This document shows, in pieces, positions 19,431 through 26,076 of a stretch of 32,074 nt of DNA. The stretch comes from Balneolales bacterium (GTDB lineage: Bacteria > Bacteroidota > Rhodothermia > Balneolales > HLUCCA01): NCBI GenBank assembly GCA_024711145.1, contig JANJTJ010000043.1:1-32074 (forward strand). The letters are read 5' to 3'. Position numbers and translations under genes: made by a program. The notes beneath the pieces were generated by a model. The model was not told where the DNA came from and did no database searches. It saw nothing but the letters and a program-made list of their open reading frames with translations. How positions within the stretch are numbered: the stretch's first letter is position 1; each line of letters begins with the position of its first letter.

Positions 19431-20717
19431 TCAGATGCGGTACAGGTCGTGGGCGGCATCGCTTCGGTAGGCGGTCCAGGCGGGCAGCACGCCGGCCAGC
19501 AGTCCGCCGGCGAACAGGATGCCGTATTGGATGCCGAGGTCGATGGAGGAGTGGAACGGACGGATGACCAGGCCGGCGGTCTCCAGGAAGAACGGAGCGA
19601 GCGCTGCCAACAGCGTATGCCCGCCCAGATATCCGAGCACCACGCCGGCCAGCACCACCAGCATCGATTCGCCCAGGATGAGCACGAACAGGGTGCCGCG
19701 GCGTACGCCCAGGGCACGGAATACGGCCAGATCGCGCCGCCGACCGTCCATGGTGGTGTACACGGCCAAAAAGACGGCGATGAGTGCCACCACGGCTACC
19801 AACCGGGCGATCCATACCAACGCTTTTTCCCCGTTTCCTACGATCGACATCAGATTGGCGATCTGTTGGGCCGGAATGACCGCCATCACGGCATCCTTGA
19901 AGGGAAAGAACGGGTCCCGTTCCATCTGGCGCCGCATGAGGGGGTGGTCCGGTGTCTTGAAGTTGAGGGTGCTCACCACCATCAGCGCCATCTGTGGCGA
20001 CTTGAACTTGACCATCACCGCATCCAGCTCGGTCACCTCGGCGGCATGGTCGTGGGGTTCGGGCCGGTACCCCCGGTGCATGTCGGCGGTGGACACCACA
20101 TCGGTGAACAGGACCCGGTCGTTGGCGGTACCCGTAGGCGCCAGAATGCCCGTTACCCGCAGCGGGTTGCCGTCGTGCTCGCGCACGTCGGCGCTGTCTC
20201 CGGGTTCGATGAGGCCGTGCGCGGCGATGATGGTGTCGCCTACGGCCAGTCCCAGGCGTTGGGCGGCAACCGATCCCGCCACCACTTCGCCGGCTTCGGT
20301 GAAGAACCGGCCCTCGGCGGCCTGGAACCGCCTGCCGCGCATGGGTTCGCCCATTTCCAGGAAGCTGGCGGATGTACCTATGATGCGTGACCCGCGATAG
20401 GAATCGCCCACATAAAGCGGAAATGCGCGTTCCACCCGGGGATCGCCCAGCGCGGCTTCATACAGCGCATAGGGCACGATGCCGGTCGAGGTCTCCAGGT
20501 GGTACACGGCATTGAGCACCGATTGCAGTGGGCTGCCTTTGGCGGCCAGCAACAGGTCGAATCCCGTACTGGTCTGCCGGTAACCTTCCTGCATCTGGAC
20601 CCGCACCGTGGTTACGGAGGTGATCAGTGCCGCACCAACGGCGACCGACAGCAGCGTGAGGGTGGTGGCCAGCGGGCGTTTGCCCAGTTGACGCAGCACG
20701 ATGCGCAACCCGTTCAT
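19431..20717 (-). CDS. FtsX/MacB-like ABC transporter permease
   Basis: The product is 428 residues. It has one N-terminal membrane helix (TTLTLLSVAVGAALITSVT), a large periplasmic MacB-type core (about 45-290), and three C-terminal helices (LVAVVALIAVFLAVYTTM; LFVLILGESMLVVLAGVVLGYLG; IQYGILFAGGLLAGVLP). The pattern is of the type VII (MacB/FtsX/LolC) class, which couples cytoplasmic ATP hydrolysis to movements in the periplasm. The core contains EPHDHAAEV (near residue 220), a small His-rich patch. The start overlaps the ATPase stop by 4 nt, so the two are translationally coupled. The substrate is not determined by sequence. Confidence 0.88.
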   Translation of the reverse strand: MNGLRIVLRQLGKRPLATTLTLLSVAVGAALITSVTTVRVQMQEGYRQTSTGFDLLLAAKGSPLQSVLNAVYHLETSTGIVPYALYEAALGDPRVERAFPLYVGDSYRGSRIIGTSASFLEMGEPMRGRRFQAAEGRFFTEAGEVVAGSVAAQRLGLAVGDTIIAAHGLIEPGDSADVREHDGNPLRVTGILAPTGTANDRVLFTDVVSTADMHRGYRPEPHDHAAEVTELDAVMVKFKSPQMALMVVSTLNFKTPDHPLMRRQMERDPFFPFKDAVMAVIPAQQIANLMSIVGNGEKALVWIARLVAVVALIAVFLAVYTTMDGRRRDLAVFRALGVRRGTLFVLILGESMLVVLAGVVLGYLGGHTLLAALAPFFLETAGLVIRPFHSSIDLGIQYGILFAGGLLAGVLPAWTAYRSDAAHDLYRI

Positions 20718-21367
20718 GCGGCTACCTCCGCAAGGTCCACCGTACGGGGGAAGGAGGCGGCGATGGCCGGATCATGCGTGACCAACACCAACGTGCGCCC
20801 CTCCGAACGCGCCTGCAACAGGTCCATCACTTCGGCCGCCGTGGCCGGATCCAACGAGCCGGTGGGTTCATCGGCCAGGATCACCGACGGGTTGTTGAAC
20901 AAGGCCCTGGCTATGCATACCCGTTGCTGCTGCCCCACGCTCAGCGCTCCCGGCGGATGGTGCATGCGGTCGGCCAACCCCACCGATTCGAGCACGGCCT
21001 CCGCCGCGGCACGGTCGGGTCGGTCGCCTTTGGCATAGGCCGCCATCAGCACGTTCTCCAAGGCGGTGAAGGCCCCCAGCAGATGGAAACTCTGGAACAC
21101 GTATCCGATGGTGGACGCCCGGAAGCGGTCCCGTTCGGGTTCCGACAGCGAGGTGATGGCGGTGCCCTGCACGGTGATGGTTCCCGAATCGGCGGCCAGA
21201 AGCCCCGAACACAGATGGAGGAAGGTGGTCTTGCCCGAACCCGACGCTCCCCGGAGCGCCACATGTTCACCGGAAGCCATTTCGAAACGGCCCACCCGCA
21301 ACACCTCGCGGAGCCGGCCGGTGAGGGGGTCGGGGTATCGTTTCACTACCTGGTCGAATTGCAGCAT
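20714..21367 (-). CDS. LolD/MacB-type ABC transporter ATP-binding protein
   Basis: The product is 217 residues, a single nucleotide-binding domain. It has Walker A GASGSGKT (near 40-47), Q-loop YVFQSFHLLGAFTALENV, signature LSVGQQQRVCIARAL (Val replaces the first Gly, which is common in LolD/FtsE relatives), Walker B VILADEPTGSLD and H-loop VTHD. 'ADEPTGSLD' is typical of the LolD/MacB/FtsE group. It is the first gene of a three-gene minus-strand operon with the permease and the DUF3299 protein, and it is divergent from the rimP operon. Catalytic residues are intact. Confidence 0.92.
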   Translation of the reverse strand: MLQFDQVVKRYPDPLTGRLREVLRVGRFEMASGEHVALRGASGSGKTTFLHLCSGLLAADSGTITVQGTAITSLSEPERDRFRASTIGYVFQSFHLLGAFTALENVLMAAYAKGDRPDRAAAEAVLESVGLADRMHHPPGALSVGQQQRVCIARALFNNPSVILADEPTGSLDPATAAEVMDLLQARSEGRTLVLVTHDPAIAASFPRTVDLAEVAA

Positions 21368-21425: not shown

Positions 21426-21456
21426 TTGGAAAAACACGGGTTCGGCCGTACTTTTG
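21426..21456 (+). promoter_or_regulatory. Bacteroidota-type sigma-A promoter of the rimP-nusA-infB operon
   Basis: TTG (21426-21428), exactly 20 nt, then TACTTTTG (21449-21456). This is a full match to the Bacteroidota consensus (TTG, 19-21 nt, TAnnTTTG). Transcription should start near 21461, about 60 nt before the rimP start codon. Confidence 0.75.
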
Positions 21457-21466
21457 GGCACTGGAG

Positions 21467-21498
21467 AAAGTGAGCGCAGACCCGCCTCACTTTTTTTT
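21467..21498 (+). terminator. Intrinsic terminator hairpin in the rimP leader (candidate attenuator)
   Basis: AAAGTGAG (21467-21474) pairs exactly with CTCACTTT (21486-21493) around an 11-nt loop whose CG ends can pair further. A run of eight Ts covers 21491-21498. No plus-strand gene ends upstream (the neighbour is divergent), so the hairpin can only act on the rimP operon transcript itself, starting within about 10 nt of its predicted 5' end. Confidence 0.65.
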
Positions 21499-21520
21499 GT
21501 ATCTGGATTCCGGAACCGAC

Positions 21521-21985
21521 ATGACCATCGACCTCATTCAAACCGTTACCGACACCACCCGGCAATTGCTCGGGGAGGGAGAGATGTATCTGGTTGATGT
21601 GGAGGTCAAGGGTACCCCTGCCGCTCCCATCATCTGGGTGTTCGTGGATACCGTTGCCGGCGGGGTGGGCATAGACGCCTGCGCCAAGCTCAGTCGGGAA
21701 CTCAATTTCCACATGGGCACCATGGAGGGCATTCCGGACCAATTCACGCTGAACGTGTCCTCTCCCGGCCTGGACAGGCCCCTGAAGGACCTCCGTCAGT
21801 TCCAGGCCAATCTGGGCCGCACGGCTTCGGCCAAATACCGCGGGCCCGACGGCAAAACCCAGACCACCAAAGGGAAACTGGTATCGGTCGACGATACCGG
21901 CTTCACTCTGGCCGACGACAAAGGGGCCGAGCACCGCTTCTCCCTTTCCGAAACCGAACTCAAGATCATTCCGGTCTTTTCCTGA
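21521..21985 (+). CDS. rimP: Ribosome maturation factor RimP
   Basis: The product is 154 residues, the normal RimP length. It helps assemble the 30S subunit. Motifs are YLVDVEVKG near residue 23, WVFVDTVAGGVGIDACAKLSREL near 40-60, and the signature LNVSSPGLDRPLK near 82. A C-terminal SH3-like barrel follows (GKLVSVDDTGFTLADDKG). The ATG at 21521 was chosen because family members start close to this point. An in-frame GTG at 21470 would add 17 residues but would put the terminator hairpin into coding sequence. It is first in the translation operon, followed after 18 nt by nusA. Confidence 0.94.
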   Translation: MTIDLIQTVTDTTRQLLGEGEMYLVDVEVKGTPAAPIIWVFVDTVAGGVGIDACAKLSRELNFHMGTMEGIPDQFTLNVSSPGLDRPLKDLRQFQANLGRTASAKYRGPDGKTQTTKGKLVSVDDTGFTLADDKGAEHRFSLSETELKIIPVFS

Positions 21986-22003: not shown

Positions 22004-23263
22004 ATGCAAACGGATATCTCCAAACAGATTATCAGCTCCTTCGCCGAGATCGCCAAAGACAAAGGCATCAATCGGGACATGTTGCTCTCCATCCTGGAAG
22101 ACGTGTTCCGTTCGATGATCCGCAAGGTGTATGAAGTGGACGACTCCTTCGAAGTGATCCTGAACCCGGACCGGGGCGAACTGCAGATCCTGCATGTGCG
22201 CGAAGTGGTTCCCGACGAGGAGTTCCAGAATCCGGTATCCGAGATCAGACTCTCGGAGGCCAAGAAGAAAGATCCGGACCTGGGTCTGTACGACCAGTAC
22301 GCCCAGGAAGTCCATATCGAGGATTTCGGCCGCCGTGCGGTCATGATGGCCCGCCAGACCCTGGCCCAACGCATCCGCGAGATCGAGAAGGACAACGTCT
22401 TCACCGACTACTCCAAGCTGGTCGGTGAAATCGTGATGGGCGATGTGTACCAGGTGCGCACGAAAGACATCCTGGTGAACCACAACGGCGTGGAGCTCAT
22501 CCTGCCCAAGTCGCAACAGATCCACAAAGACCGCTACCGCAAGGGCGACACCATCCGTGCGGCCGTGATCGAAGTGAAACGCGAGAACGGCAACCCGGCC
22601 GTCATCATTTCCCGCACATCGCCCATTTTTCTTGAGCGCTTGTTCGAGAACGAGATTCCCGAAGTGTACGACGGCATCATCGAGATCGTGAAAGCCGTGC
22701 GCGAGCCCGGCGAGCGCAGCAAGGTGGCCGTACTGTCGCACGACGAACGCGTGGACGCCGTAGGCGCCTGCGTGGGCATGAAAGGCATCCGCATCCATTC
22801 CATCGTGCGCGAACTGTGCAACGAGAACATCGATGTGATCCCCTTCACCAAAGACAAGAAAGAGTTCATCAAACGCGCGCTCCAACCGGCCGATGTGCTG
22901 TCCGTGGACCTGACCCTCGATGGCAAACACGCCAAAGTGGTGGTTCCGGCCGACCAGGTCTCCCGGGCCATCGGCACCCGTGGGGTGAACATCCGTCTGG
23001 CATCCATGCTTACCGAGACCGAAATCGATGTGTATCGGGAGTTGGATGAAGAAGACGATATCGAAATCGATGAATTCGTCGAGGATTTCGGCAAGGAAGT
23101 CGTGGATCGCCTGCATTCGATCGGATGCGATACGGCCCGCGACGTGCTCGACCTCGGCGTTGATGAGATTGTGAAACGGACGGATGGAGAGATCGACGCC
23201 AAAACGGCCAAGCAGATCATCCAGACCATCCAGGCCGAATTTGAAGAGGAAGAATCCAACTGA
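22004..23263 (+). CDS. nusA: Transcription termination/antitermination factor NusA
   Basis: The product is 419 residues. It binds RNA polymerase and nascent RNA to modulate pausing, termination and antitermination. Domains in order are the N-terminal polymerase-binding domain (about 1-130), S1 (about 135-205, GEIVMGDVYQVRTKDILV), KH1 (AVISRTSPIFLERLF onward, with GACVGMKGIRIHSIVREL near 250), KH2 (SRAIGTRGVNIRLASML near 325) and an acidic C-terminal tail (DEEDDIEID; EFEEEESN) in place of the two acidic repeats of the E. coli protein. This shorter form is common outside gammaproteobacteria. NusA acts on hairpin terminators, so the hairpin in the operon leader could be a feedback target. infB follows after 2 nt. 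Confidence 0.96.
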   Translation: MQTDISKQIISSFAEIAKDKGINRDMLLSILEDVFRSMIRKVYEVDDSFEVILNPDRGELQILHVREVVPDEEFQNPVSEIRLSEAKKKDPDLGLYDQYAQEVHIEDFGRRAVMMARQTLAQRIREIEKDNVFTDYSKLVGEIVMGDVYQVRTKDILVNHNGVELILPKSQQIHKDRYRKGDTIRAAVIEVKRENGNPAVIISRTSPIFLERLFENEIPEVYDGIIEIVKAVREPGERSKVAVLSHDERVDAVGACVGMKGIRIHSIVRELCNENIDVIPFTKDKKEFIKRALQPADVLSVDLTLDGKHAKVVVPADQVSRAIGTRGVNIRLASMLTETEIDVYRELDEEDDIEIDEFVEDFGKEVVDRLHSIGCDTARDVLDLGVDEIVKRTDGEIDAKTAKQIIQTIQAEFEEEESN

Positions 23264-23265
23264 GC

Positions 23266-26076
23266 ATGTCGATAGACGCAACGAAAAAACTGTTCCAAGT
23301 CGCGAAGGAGTTCAACGTATCCACGGGTACCATCGTGGATACATTGGCTCAGGCGGGCTACAAGATCCAACCTTCGCCTTCCACCAAGGTGGATGGCGAG
23401 ATGTACTCCGCCCTGGAGAAGGCACTCGGATCGGACAAAGCCCGCAACCGCGAACACGAACGTACCCGCAAGGAATACGAAGAGAAGCGCGAGCGCATCC
23501 AGCAGGGGCGCAACGAGATCGTCAACGTGAATCAGAACGACGATCTTCCATTGGCGCCTCTGGATCTGGAGCCGTTGCCGTTGCAACCGATCGAAACGCC
23601 TCCTCCGGCTCCCAAACCCAAGCCCGAGCCGAAACCCGAGCCGAAGCCGGAACCTGTGGTCGAAGCACCACCGGCCCCGGCACCGGCTCCGACGCCCGCT
23701 CCGGAACCCGAGCCCGTGCCGGCTCCCGAGCCCGCACCCGCACCGGTTGCGGAAGCACCCGCGGCACCTGAAACTCCTGCCGCTCCCGTAGCGGCCGCCG
23801 CTCCCGCCGCAGAACCCGAACCCGAGGTGATGCGGGTGTCGGCTCCGAAACTGCGTGGTCCCAACGTGTTGGGCCGCATCCAGATTCCCACGCCAGCCGC
23901 CGGTGCCGACAGCGCCGACCGCAAGAAGAAAAAGAAGAAGAAGGTTATCGTAACCGGCCGGACAGGCGCCACCGGTACTTCGGGTACCGAAGGTGGCGAT
24001 GCCTCCGCTCCGCGTTCGTCAACCCCGGGCATTCCACGCCGCCCCGTAGGCGCGGGCGGCCCGGGCCGTCCCGCCGGCACAACCGGTGGCGGAACGGCCG
24101 GCGCTTCCGCCAATGCCGCGAAAAAGAAGAAAGGCAAGAGCGACGGACCCGACGACCGTCAGGTCAACAACAAGATGCGCGAGACCATGGCCGCCCTCAA
24201 AGGCAGTGCCGGGGCCAAGCGCCGCAAGAAGATCCGCAAACAACGCCGCAGCGATTTCGAGGCCGGCCGAGCCGAAGCCGAAGAATTGGCACGCATGAGC
24301 GAGGGCATCATCGAGGTGACCGAGTTCATGACGGTGTCCGACCTGGCGTCTTCCATGGATATCTCGGCTTCCAAAGTGATTGCCGCCTGCATGGGCATGG
24401 GCATGTTCGTGTCCATCAACCAACGCCTCGACAAAGAGAAGATCGAACTGATCGCCGCCGAATTCGACCAGGAAATCGAATTCGTGGATGCCGAAATCCT
24501 CACCGAAGAATTGGCCGAGGAGGAGGACGACGAACAGGATCTGGTGCCTCGCGCTCCGGTCGTGACCGTCATGGGTCACGTGGATCACGGGAAAACCTCC
24601 CTGCTCGATTACATCCGCAAAGCCAAGGTGGCCGCTGGCGAAGCCGGCGGTATCACCCAGCACATCGGCGCTTATGCCGTAACCCTGGACGACGGCCGCA
24701 AAATCACCTTCCTGGATACGCCGGGTCACGAAGCGTTCACCGCCATGCGTGCCCGTGGTGCCCAAGCCACGGACATCGTCATTCTGGTGGTCGCCGCCGA
24801 CGACCAGGTGATGCCTCAGACGGTGGAAGCCATCAACCACGCCCAGGCGGCCCAGGTGCCGATCGTGGTGGCCCTCAACAAGATCGACAAACCCGAAGCC
24901 AACCCGGACCGCATCCGCCAGCAGCTTTCCGAGCACAACGTGATTGTGGAAGAATGGGGTGGCAAAGCCCAATGCGCCGAAGTATCGGCGCACAAGGGTA
25001 CCGGTATCGATGCCTTGCTTGAGAAAGTGCTCATCGAAGCCGAACTCATGGACCTGAAAGCCAGTGCCAAGCGCCGCGCTTCCGGTCTGGTGCTCGAAGC
25101 CAAGGTGGACAAAGGCAAAGGAACCGTTGCCAACGTGCTCATCCAGCGCGGTACCATCCGCGTGGGCGATCCGTTCGTGGCGGGCCCCGTGCATGGCCGC
25201 GTACGTTCCATGGAGAACGAGAAAGGCCAACGCATCACCGAAGCCGGTCCGTCCACGCCCATCCAGCTCACCGGGTTCGACGGCATTCCCCAAGCGGGCG
25301 ACAAACTGCTCATCACGGCCGATGAGAAAACCGCCAAGGAAATCGCCACCCAACGCCAGCAGCTCCGTCGCGAGCAGGATATGCGCCGCGTGAAACACAT
25401 CACGTTGGACGAAATCTCCCGCCGGTTGCGCGAAGGCGACGTCTCCGAACTCAACCTCATCATCAAGGGCGACGTGGACGGTTCCATCGAAGCCCTGTCG
25501 GGTTCGCTGCAGAAACTGGGCACCAACGAAGTGGTGGTCAACATCATCCACACCGGCATCGGTGCCATCTCCGAATCGGACGTGTTGCTGGCATCGGCAT
25601 CCAACGCCATCATCATCGGCTTCCAGGTACGGCCCACCGCCAACGCCCGCAAGCTGGCCGAGCGCGAGGAAATCGACATCCGCCTGTTCAGCATCATCTA
25701 CGACGCCATCGATGTGGTGCGCGACGCCCTCGAAGGCATGCTCTCGCCCGAACTCAACGACAAGATCCTGGGCTCGGTGGACGTGCGCGAAACGTTCAAA
25801 GTACCCAACGTGGGTACCATCGCCGGTTGCTATGTGACCGACGGCAAGATCGTGCGCGCCAACAAGATCCGTCTCATCCGCGACGGTATCGTGATTCACG
25901 ACGGCAACATCTCCTCGCTCAAGCGTTTCAAGGACGACGTCCGCGAAGTGGCCGCCGGCTACGAGTGCGGTATCGGCATCCAGAACTACAACGACATCCG
26001 CATCGGCGACGTGATCGAGAGCTACGAGATCACCGAAACCAAACGGAAGCTGGAAGCCCAAACCAGCCACCGCTGA
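23266..26076 (+). CDS. infB: Translation initiation factor IF-2
   Basis: The product is 936 residues. It is a GTPase that brings initiator tRNA to the ribosome. It has an N-terminal IF2N helix domain (KKLFQVAKEFNVSTGTIVDTLAQAGY, residues 7-32). A long low-complexity linker follows (about 105-290) with Pro/Ala/Glu repeats and a run of seven lysines (residues 220-226). The second IF2N subdomain covers about 340-410. The G domain has G1 GHVDHGKT (437-444), G3 DTPGHE (484-489) and G4 NKID (538-541), and domains II-IV follow. The linker resembles Bacteroidota IF-2 (KLRGPNVLGRIQIP). Long antisense frames across this gene are composition artefacts. rbfA follows after 4 nt. Confidence 0.97.
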   Translation: MSIDATKKLFQVAKEFNVSTGTIVDTLAQAGYKIQPSPSTKVDGEMYSALEKALGSDKARNREHERTRKEYEEKRERIQQGRNEIVNVNQNDDLPLAPLDLEPLPLQPIETPPPAPKPKPEPKPEPKPEPVVEAPPAPAPAPTPAPEPEPVPAPEPAPAPVAEAPAAPETPAAPVAAAAPAAEPEPEVMRVSAPKLRGPNVLGRIQIPTPAAGADSADRKKKKKKKVIVTGRTGATGTSGTEGGDASAPRSSTPGIPRRPVGAGGPGRPAGTTGGGTAGASANAAKKKKGKSDGPDDRQVNNKMRETMAALKGSAGAKRRKKIRKQRRSDFEAGRAEAEELARMSEGIIEVTEFMTVSDLASSMDISASKVIAACMGMGMFVSINQRLDKEKIELIAAEFDQEIEFVDAEILTEELAEEEDDEQDLVPRAPVVTVMGHVDHGKTSLLDYIRKAKVAAGEAGGITQHIGAYAVTLDDGRKITFLDTPGHEAFTAMRARGAQATDIVILVVAADDQVMPQTVEAINHAQAAQVPIVVALNKIDKPEANPDRIRQQLSEHNVIVEEWGGKAQCAEVSAHKGTGIDALLEKVLIEAELMDLKASAKRRASGLVLEAKVDKGKGTVANVLIQRGTIRVGDPFVAGPVHGRVRSMENEKGQRITEAGPSTPIQLTGFDGIPQAGDKLLITADEKTAKEIATQRQQLRREQDMRRVKHITLDEISRRLREGDVSELNLIIKGDVDGSIEALSGSLQKLGTNEVVVNIIHTGIGAISESDVLLASASNAIIIGFQVRPTANARKLAEREEIDIRLFSIIYDAIDVVRDALEGMLSPELNDKILGSVDVRETFKVPNVGTIAGCYVTDGKIVRANKIRLIRDGIVIHDGNISSLKRFKDDVREVAAGYECGIGIQNYNDIRIGDVIESYEITETKRKLEAQTSHR

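Follow-up and report, generated by a model that had tools for sequence, protein, structure and literature searches.

NusA stimulates termination at hairpins, and the original work on B. subtilis nusA, that of Mondal et al. in 2016, is said to have described autoregulation without an antiterminator. A review likewise presents B. subtilis nusA as autoregulated, with NusA stimulating termination in the leader (PMC12288461). For the rimP-leader, a previously described attenuator, NusA was named as the best candidate regulator, and RimP was also mentioned (Naville and Gautheret 2010, PMC2965389). Termination within the S. agalactiae gbs0413-gbs0418 operon (rimP-nusA-infB) was mapped 31 nt past the transcription start, at an intrinsic terminator, and feedback by NusA was proposed (PMC4448216). 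Finally, a structured 5′ element that has no Rfam match and is conserved in Flavobacteriaceae occurs upstream of rimP in F. psychrophilum (PMC9723704).

We analyzed a contiguous 32,074-nucleotide stretch of DNA from a Balneolales bacterium (contig JANJTJ010000043.1; hereafter, the window), in which a promoter, a hairpin and a T-run follow one another in a fixed and conserved order ahead of the same operon. The best explanation for this arrangement is probably a promoter-proximal, NusA-stimulated feedback attenuator of rimP-nusA-infB. The idea of NusA feedback had been raised in a sequence-only reading of this DNA and appears to be sound, but not new.

The operon begins with rimP (21521..21985, plus strand; Pfam RimP_N, 7.9e-12). 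After 18 bases comes nusA (22004..23263, plus strand; Pfam NusA_N, S1 and KH_5), whose product is the presumed feedback regulator, and then infB, encoding IF2 (23266..26076, plus strand; Pfam IF-2, IF2_N and GTP_EFTU). nusA is located downstream of the hairpin in the same operon, and the gene order is the same in the relatives that were checked. Immediately upstream, the genes at 20714-21367 and 19431-20717 encode an ABC transporter ATPase and an FtsX/MacB-type permease, respectively, and both are on the minus strand.

Bacteroidota sigma-A promoters are characterized by TTTG or TTG near -33 and TAnnTTTG near -7 (PMC7366714, PMC9723704). Both elements are present on the plus strand of the window: a TTG at 21426..21428 and, after exactly 20 bases, the -7 box TACTTTTG at 21449..21456. 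The sequence-only reading was right to propose a TTG-N20-TAnnTTTG promoter here, and this is the one promoter of its type in the window, when 0.05 per shuffle are expected (100 dinucleotide shuffles). A further 10 bases separate the box from the 5′ arm of the hairpin. The transcription start is predicted to lie at 21461..21463 (plus strand). If the box occupies positions -12 to -5, as in the Flavobacterium consensus (PMC9723704), transcription would start at 21461. In the alignment of the 81 loci described below, a CT-purine pattern is conserved at 12-14 bases from the first T in the -7 box; it suggests the start site, and would place it at 21463, 14 bases past that T. The predicted position is uncertain by about 2 bases.

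The putative terminator, which would function as an attenuator, spans 21467..21498 on the plus strand. Its 5′ arm, AAAGTGAG (21467-21474), and its 3′ arm, CTCACTTT (21486-21493), enclose the loop CGCAGACCCGC (21475-21485), and a run of eight Ts occupies 21491-21498. This anatomy and its coordinates agree with the 8-bp stem and eight Ts described earlier, but the stem and the Ts are not separate: they share three bases, with three Ts pairing with AAA. Counted apart, they amount to five pairs (GUGAG/CUCAC) and eight Ts. RNAfold predicts two more inner pairs, and the folding energy over 71 nt is -20.8 kcal/mol (z -2.85). Terminators of this type are expected 0.06 times per shuffle of the window (100 dinucleotide shuffles), and the single one found is at this place. 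An automatic scan for terminators and promoters picked up neither element, because it had a loop limit of 8 and searched for E. coli type promoters. The terminated RNA is predicted to be about 36-38 nt long in the window and 30-41 nt across relatives; the conserved promoter geometry, which gives about 36 nt here, bears out the earlier estimate of 35-40 nt. Between the end of the T-run (21498) and the rimP ATG (21521) there are 22 bases. These begin with GTATCT (21499..21504, plus strand), directly past the T-run and outside the terminator; a similar GUAYYU tail occurs at the same position in most of the relatives (L001-L080).

A scan with NusA yielded 80 loci in relatives, the majority of which bear Balneolales, Balneolaceae or Balneolia in their titles, and the copy in the window makes 81. 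All 81 rimP leaders contain GUGAG or GUGGG, then 10-15 bases, then CUCAC, CUCGC or CCCGC, followed by T7-9. A minority has GUGGG...CCCGC rather than GUGAG...CUCAC (L059, L060, L070, L071, L073 and L075). When the loci are anchored on the -7 box, TAnnTT occurs in 81/81, its TA and TT being invariant, and TTG is nearly so. The full TTG-N20-TAnnTT promoter is present upstream in 80 of the 81, although the script that chose the box gave weight to TTG; when the box is chosen blind to TTG, a TTG is still found at the 20-base spacing in about 77/81. The box is 15-26 bases ahead of the stem, while the upstream neighbors vary. There is thus good support for the conclusion of the sequence-only reading that this operon is under the control of the hairpin. 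We regard conservation across all 81 loci as the strongest evidence that the element is real. A chance resemblance, which the shuffles and the presence of the element in all relatives argue against, is so improbable as to be negligible, and we rejected it given the hairpin in 81/81 and the promoter in 80/81 loci.

The hairpin would form the very 5′ terminus of the mRNA, and a stem placed there can prevent decay that depends on the 5′ end. This raises the question of whether it is a terminator at all, or instead a 5′ stem with a role in mRNA protection or translational control. We consider the latter very improbable. A stabilizer would have no need of the T-run that is kept directly at the stem in every locus, and the distance from hairpin to start codon (usually 17-24 nt, but as much as 110 nt in outlying cases) varies in a way that argues against occlusion of the start.

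If the hairpin is a terminator, it could be constitutive and unregulated, serving to fix operon output at a lower level or to insulate the operon from upstream transcription. The hairpin is indeed simple and its T-run good, and in 46/77 relatives the longest ORF upstream shares the strand of the operon, by a crude count that uses ORFs only. However, one would sooner expect an insulator ahead of the promoter than behind it with an almost constant spacing. A weaker promoter could also hold the output at a fixed level, yet the near-consensus promoter is retained in all but one locus. A constitutive terminator is consequently improbable, if less so than a mere 5′ stem.

Covariation of the stem had been suggested as a check. 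In 60 sequences the stem is 100% paired, with a two-sided exchange of A-U for G-C at one pair and a U-A/U-G wobble at another. There is little covariation elsewhere because the remaining stem positions are invariant, and support for the stem comes mainly from conservation. The MAFFT alignment misplaces gaps in the inner stem, and inner pairs were therefore counted by a fixed-position script. By this count, 45 of 58 distinct hairpins have a mismatch (C.U, C.C or C.A) just above the five-pair stem, and GNRA sequences make up 35 of the 44 four-base loops. The imperfection of the hairpin thus seems to be maintained, which could be fitting for a terminator that responds to a factor. The window’s own loop (21475-21485) departs from this pattern of a kept mismatch and a GNRA loop.

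The stem sequence is more strongly conserved than termination alone would require, perhaps because another protein recognizes it. Given that the near-invariant GUGAG/CUCAC stem and the frequent GNRA tetraloop with its kept mismatch resemble a protein binding site, we considered a leader attenuator with a sensor other than NusA, such as RimP (the other regulator mentioned for the rimP-leader in PMC2965389), NusG, a ribosomal protein or the levels of nucleotides at the start site. No sequence feature points to another protein, however. NusA generally stimulates hairpin terminators, and in B. subtilis it is NusA that has been reported to act (PMC12288461). We therefore view a different sensor as unlikely, but as the most plausible of the competing explanations.

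The element is usually present in one strong copy per genome. A covariance model (R1) matches the window hairpin with 41.2 bits (E 1.3e-5), and the next match in the same genome has an E of 0.3. The model matches 55 of the 60 relatives searched, in most cases a single time. At the 30 best loci and the window’s own (L082 and L084-L113), rimP and nusA adjoin the match in all cases. We rejected the possibility of a regulon, i.e., the same element at other genes: the weaker matches examined, which come from the genome of the window, from several relatives and from two further genomes of the phylum, occur behind genes, have no promoter and resemble ordinary 3′ terminators. R1 found no leader in other families of the phylum, and the strongest matches compared there are not at nusA (G363, G145, G349 and G224).

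We infer that polymerase terminates at this hairpin, but only part of the time, and that the extent of termination is set by NusA. In the proposed feedback attenuator, RNA polymerase would start at about 21461-21463, and the hairpin would form within the first ~30 bases. Two outcomes would then be open to polymerase: a stop at the T-run, with release of a transcript of about 36 nt, or read-through into rimP, nusA and infB. More NusA would lead to more termination and lower operon expression. Across relatives the stem starts about 2-15 nt past the predicted start, which would therefore leave almost no upstream RNA for an antiterminator, riboswitch or aptamer. Since the downstream RNA would not yet have been made when the decision falls, a protein on the polymerase or on the hairpin would have to decide. 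NusA, itself encoded in the operon, is the most likely sensor, and the B. subtilis (PMC12288461), S. agalactiae (PMC4448216) and rimP-leader (PMC2965389) precedents make it the best candidate. The uninterrupted T-run might, however, make the terminator efficient even without NusA.

The anatomy of the element also prompts a more speculative idea, to which we give a low probability. The terminator might be met at promoter escape, while sigma leaves and NusA arrives, and would then serve as a counter of NusA. The fraction of polymerases that carry NusA after about 30 nt would directly measure free NusA, and there would be no upstream RNA for the S1 and KH domains of NusA to hold.

We also examined the region upstream of nusA or rimP in a wider sample of 40 genomes from other families of the phylum. 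A hairpin with a T-run occurs in the sense direction in 38/40 of these regions, versus 10 in the antisense direction and 7.1 expected from shuffles. In 29 of the 40 regions the terminator is 12-40 nt past a TAnnTT box, versus 0.4 expected. Stems in these families are often GAGGGGAC...GUCCCCUC or GCCCG...CGGGC, with GGGG...CCCC in many of the families, and are close to the published GGGc...gCCC. It seems that a promoter-proximal rimP terminator is general in Bacteroidota, and that the Balneolales version combines a diverged stem with the shortest distances.

Some loci in other families of the same class have tandem terminators upstream of rimP (L156, L159, L160, L162, L165, L166, L168, L170 and L171). 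The first hairpin in these tandems is GGGG...CCCC, and the second, about 40-85 nt later, is of the GCGCCCG...CGGGCG type and is followed by a T-run. By eye, the arms of the two hairpins look mutually complementary. The arrangement is reminiscent of the Gammaproteobacteria tandem with inverse motifs, with the order swapped.

These results suggest that rimP-nusA-infB is subject to feedback attenuation throughout Bacteroidota, and that Balneolales has a near-minimal form of it, consisting of a promoter, a hairpin and a T-run. So small a system is suited to studying in vitro how the level of NusA alone would set termination, without a riboswitch or antiterminator, and to asking whether the terminator acts at promoter escape. 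The Balneolales element also falls outside the coverage of current Rfam families. An Rfam search of the window gave no match at either threshold. The Rfam rimP family (RF01770), a model of 102 positions, corresponds to the same gene position, but in 60 genomes of the class it had no match above the cut-off; its sub-threshold matches do not include the window’s genome.

Compared to the known systems, the element shares with the rimP-leader an intrinsic terminator (a hairpin with a T-run) in the rimP-nusA-infB 5′ UTR, a strongly conserved stem and no visible antiterminator, for which there would be only about 2-15 nt before the hairpin if the predicted start is right. The stems differ: the published GGGc...gCCC is absent from the window and most relatives, where we find GUGAG-C-GYC-GNRA-like loop-GRY-Y-CUCAC, although the GUGGG...CCCGC minority (e.g., L059 and L070) approaches it. 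The leader in B. subtilis is also long, 180 nt as cited in PMC2965389, whereas the Balneolales hairpin begins at most about 15 nt from the predicted start. In both cases leader termination sets, or would set, transcription into the nusA operon, but the B. subtilis mechanism was shown by experiment and that in Balneolales is deduced from sequence. The S. agalactiae leader has a Firmicute promoter and hairpin, and its likeness to the Balneolales element is one of anatomy and not of sequence comparison. The F. psychrophilum element occurs at the same gene in the same phylum, and its function and termination were not worked out in PMC9723704; the hairpins of the other Bacteroidota that we sampled, often GGGGAC...GUCCCC, differ in sequence from that of Balneolales. 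Judging from these comparisons, the proposed attenuator is of a kind already known, in a Balneolales form outside the published stem motif and Rfam model that seems unusual in its compactness and its near-invariant stem.
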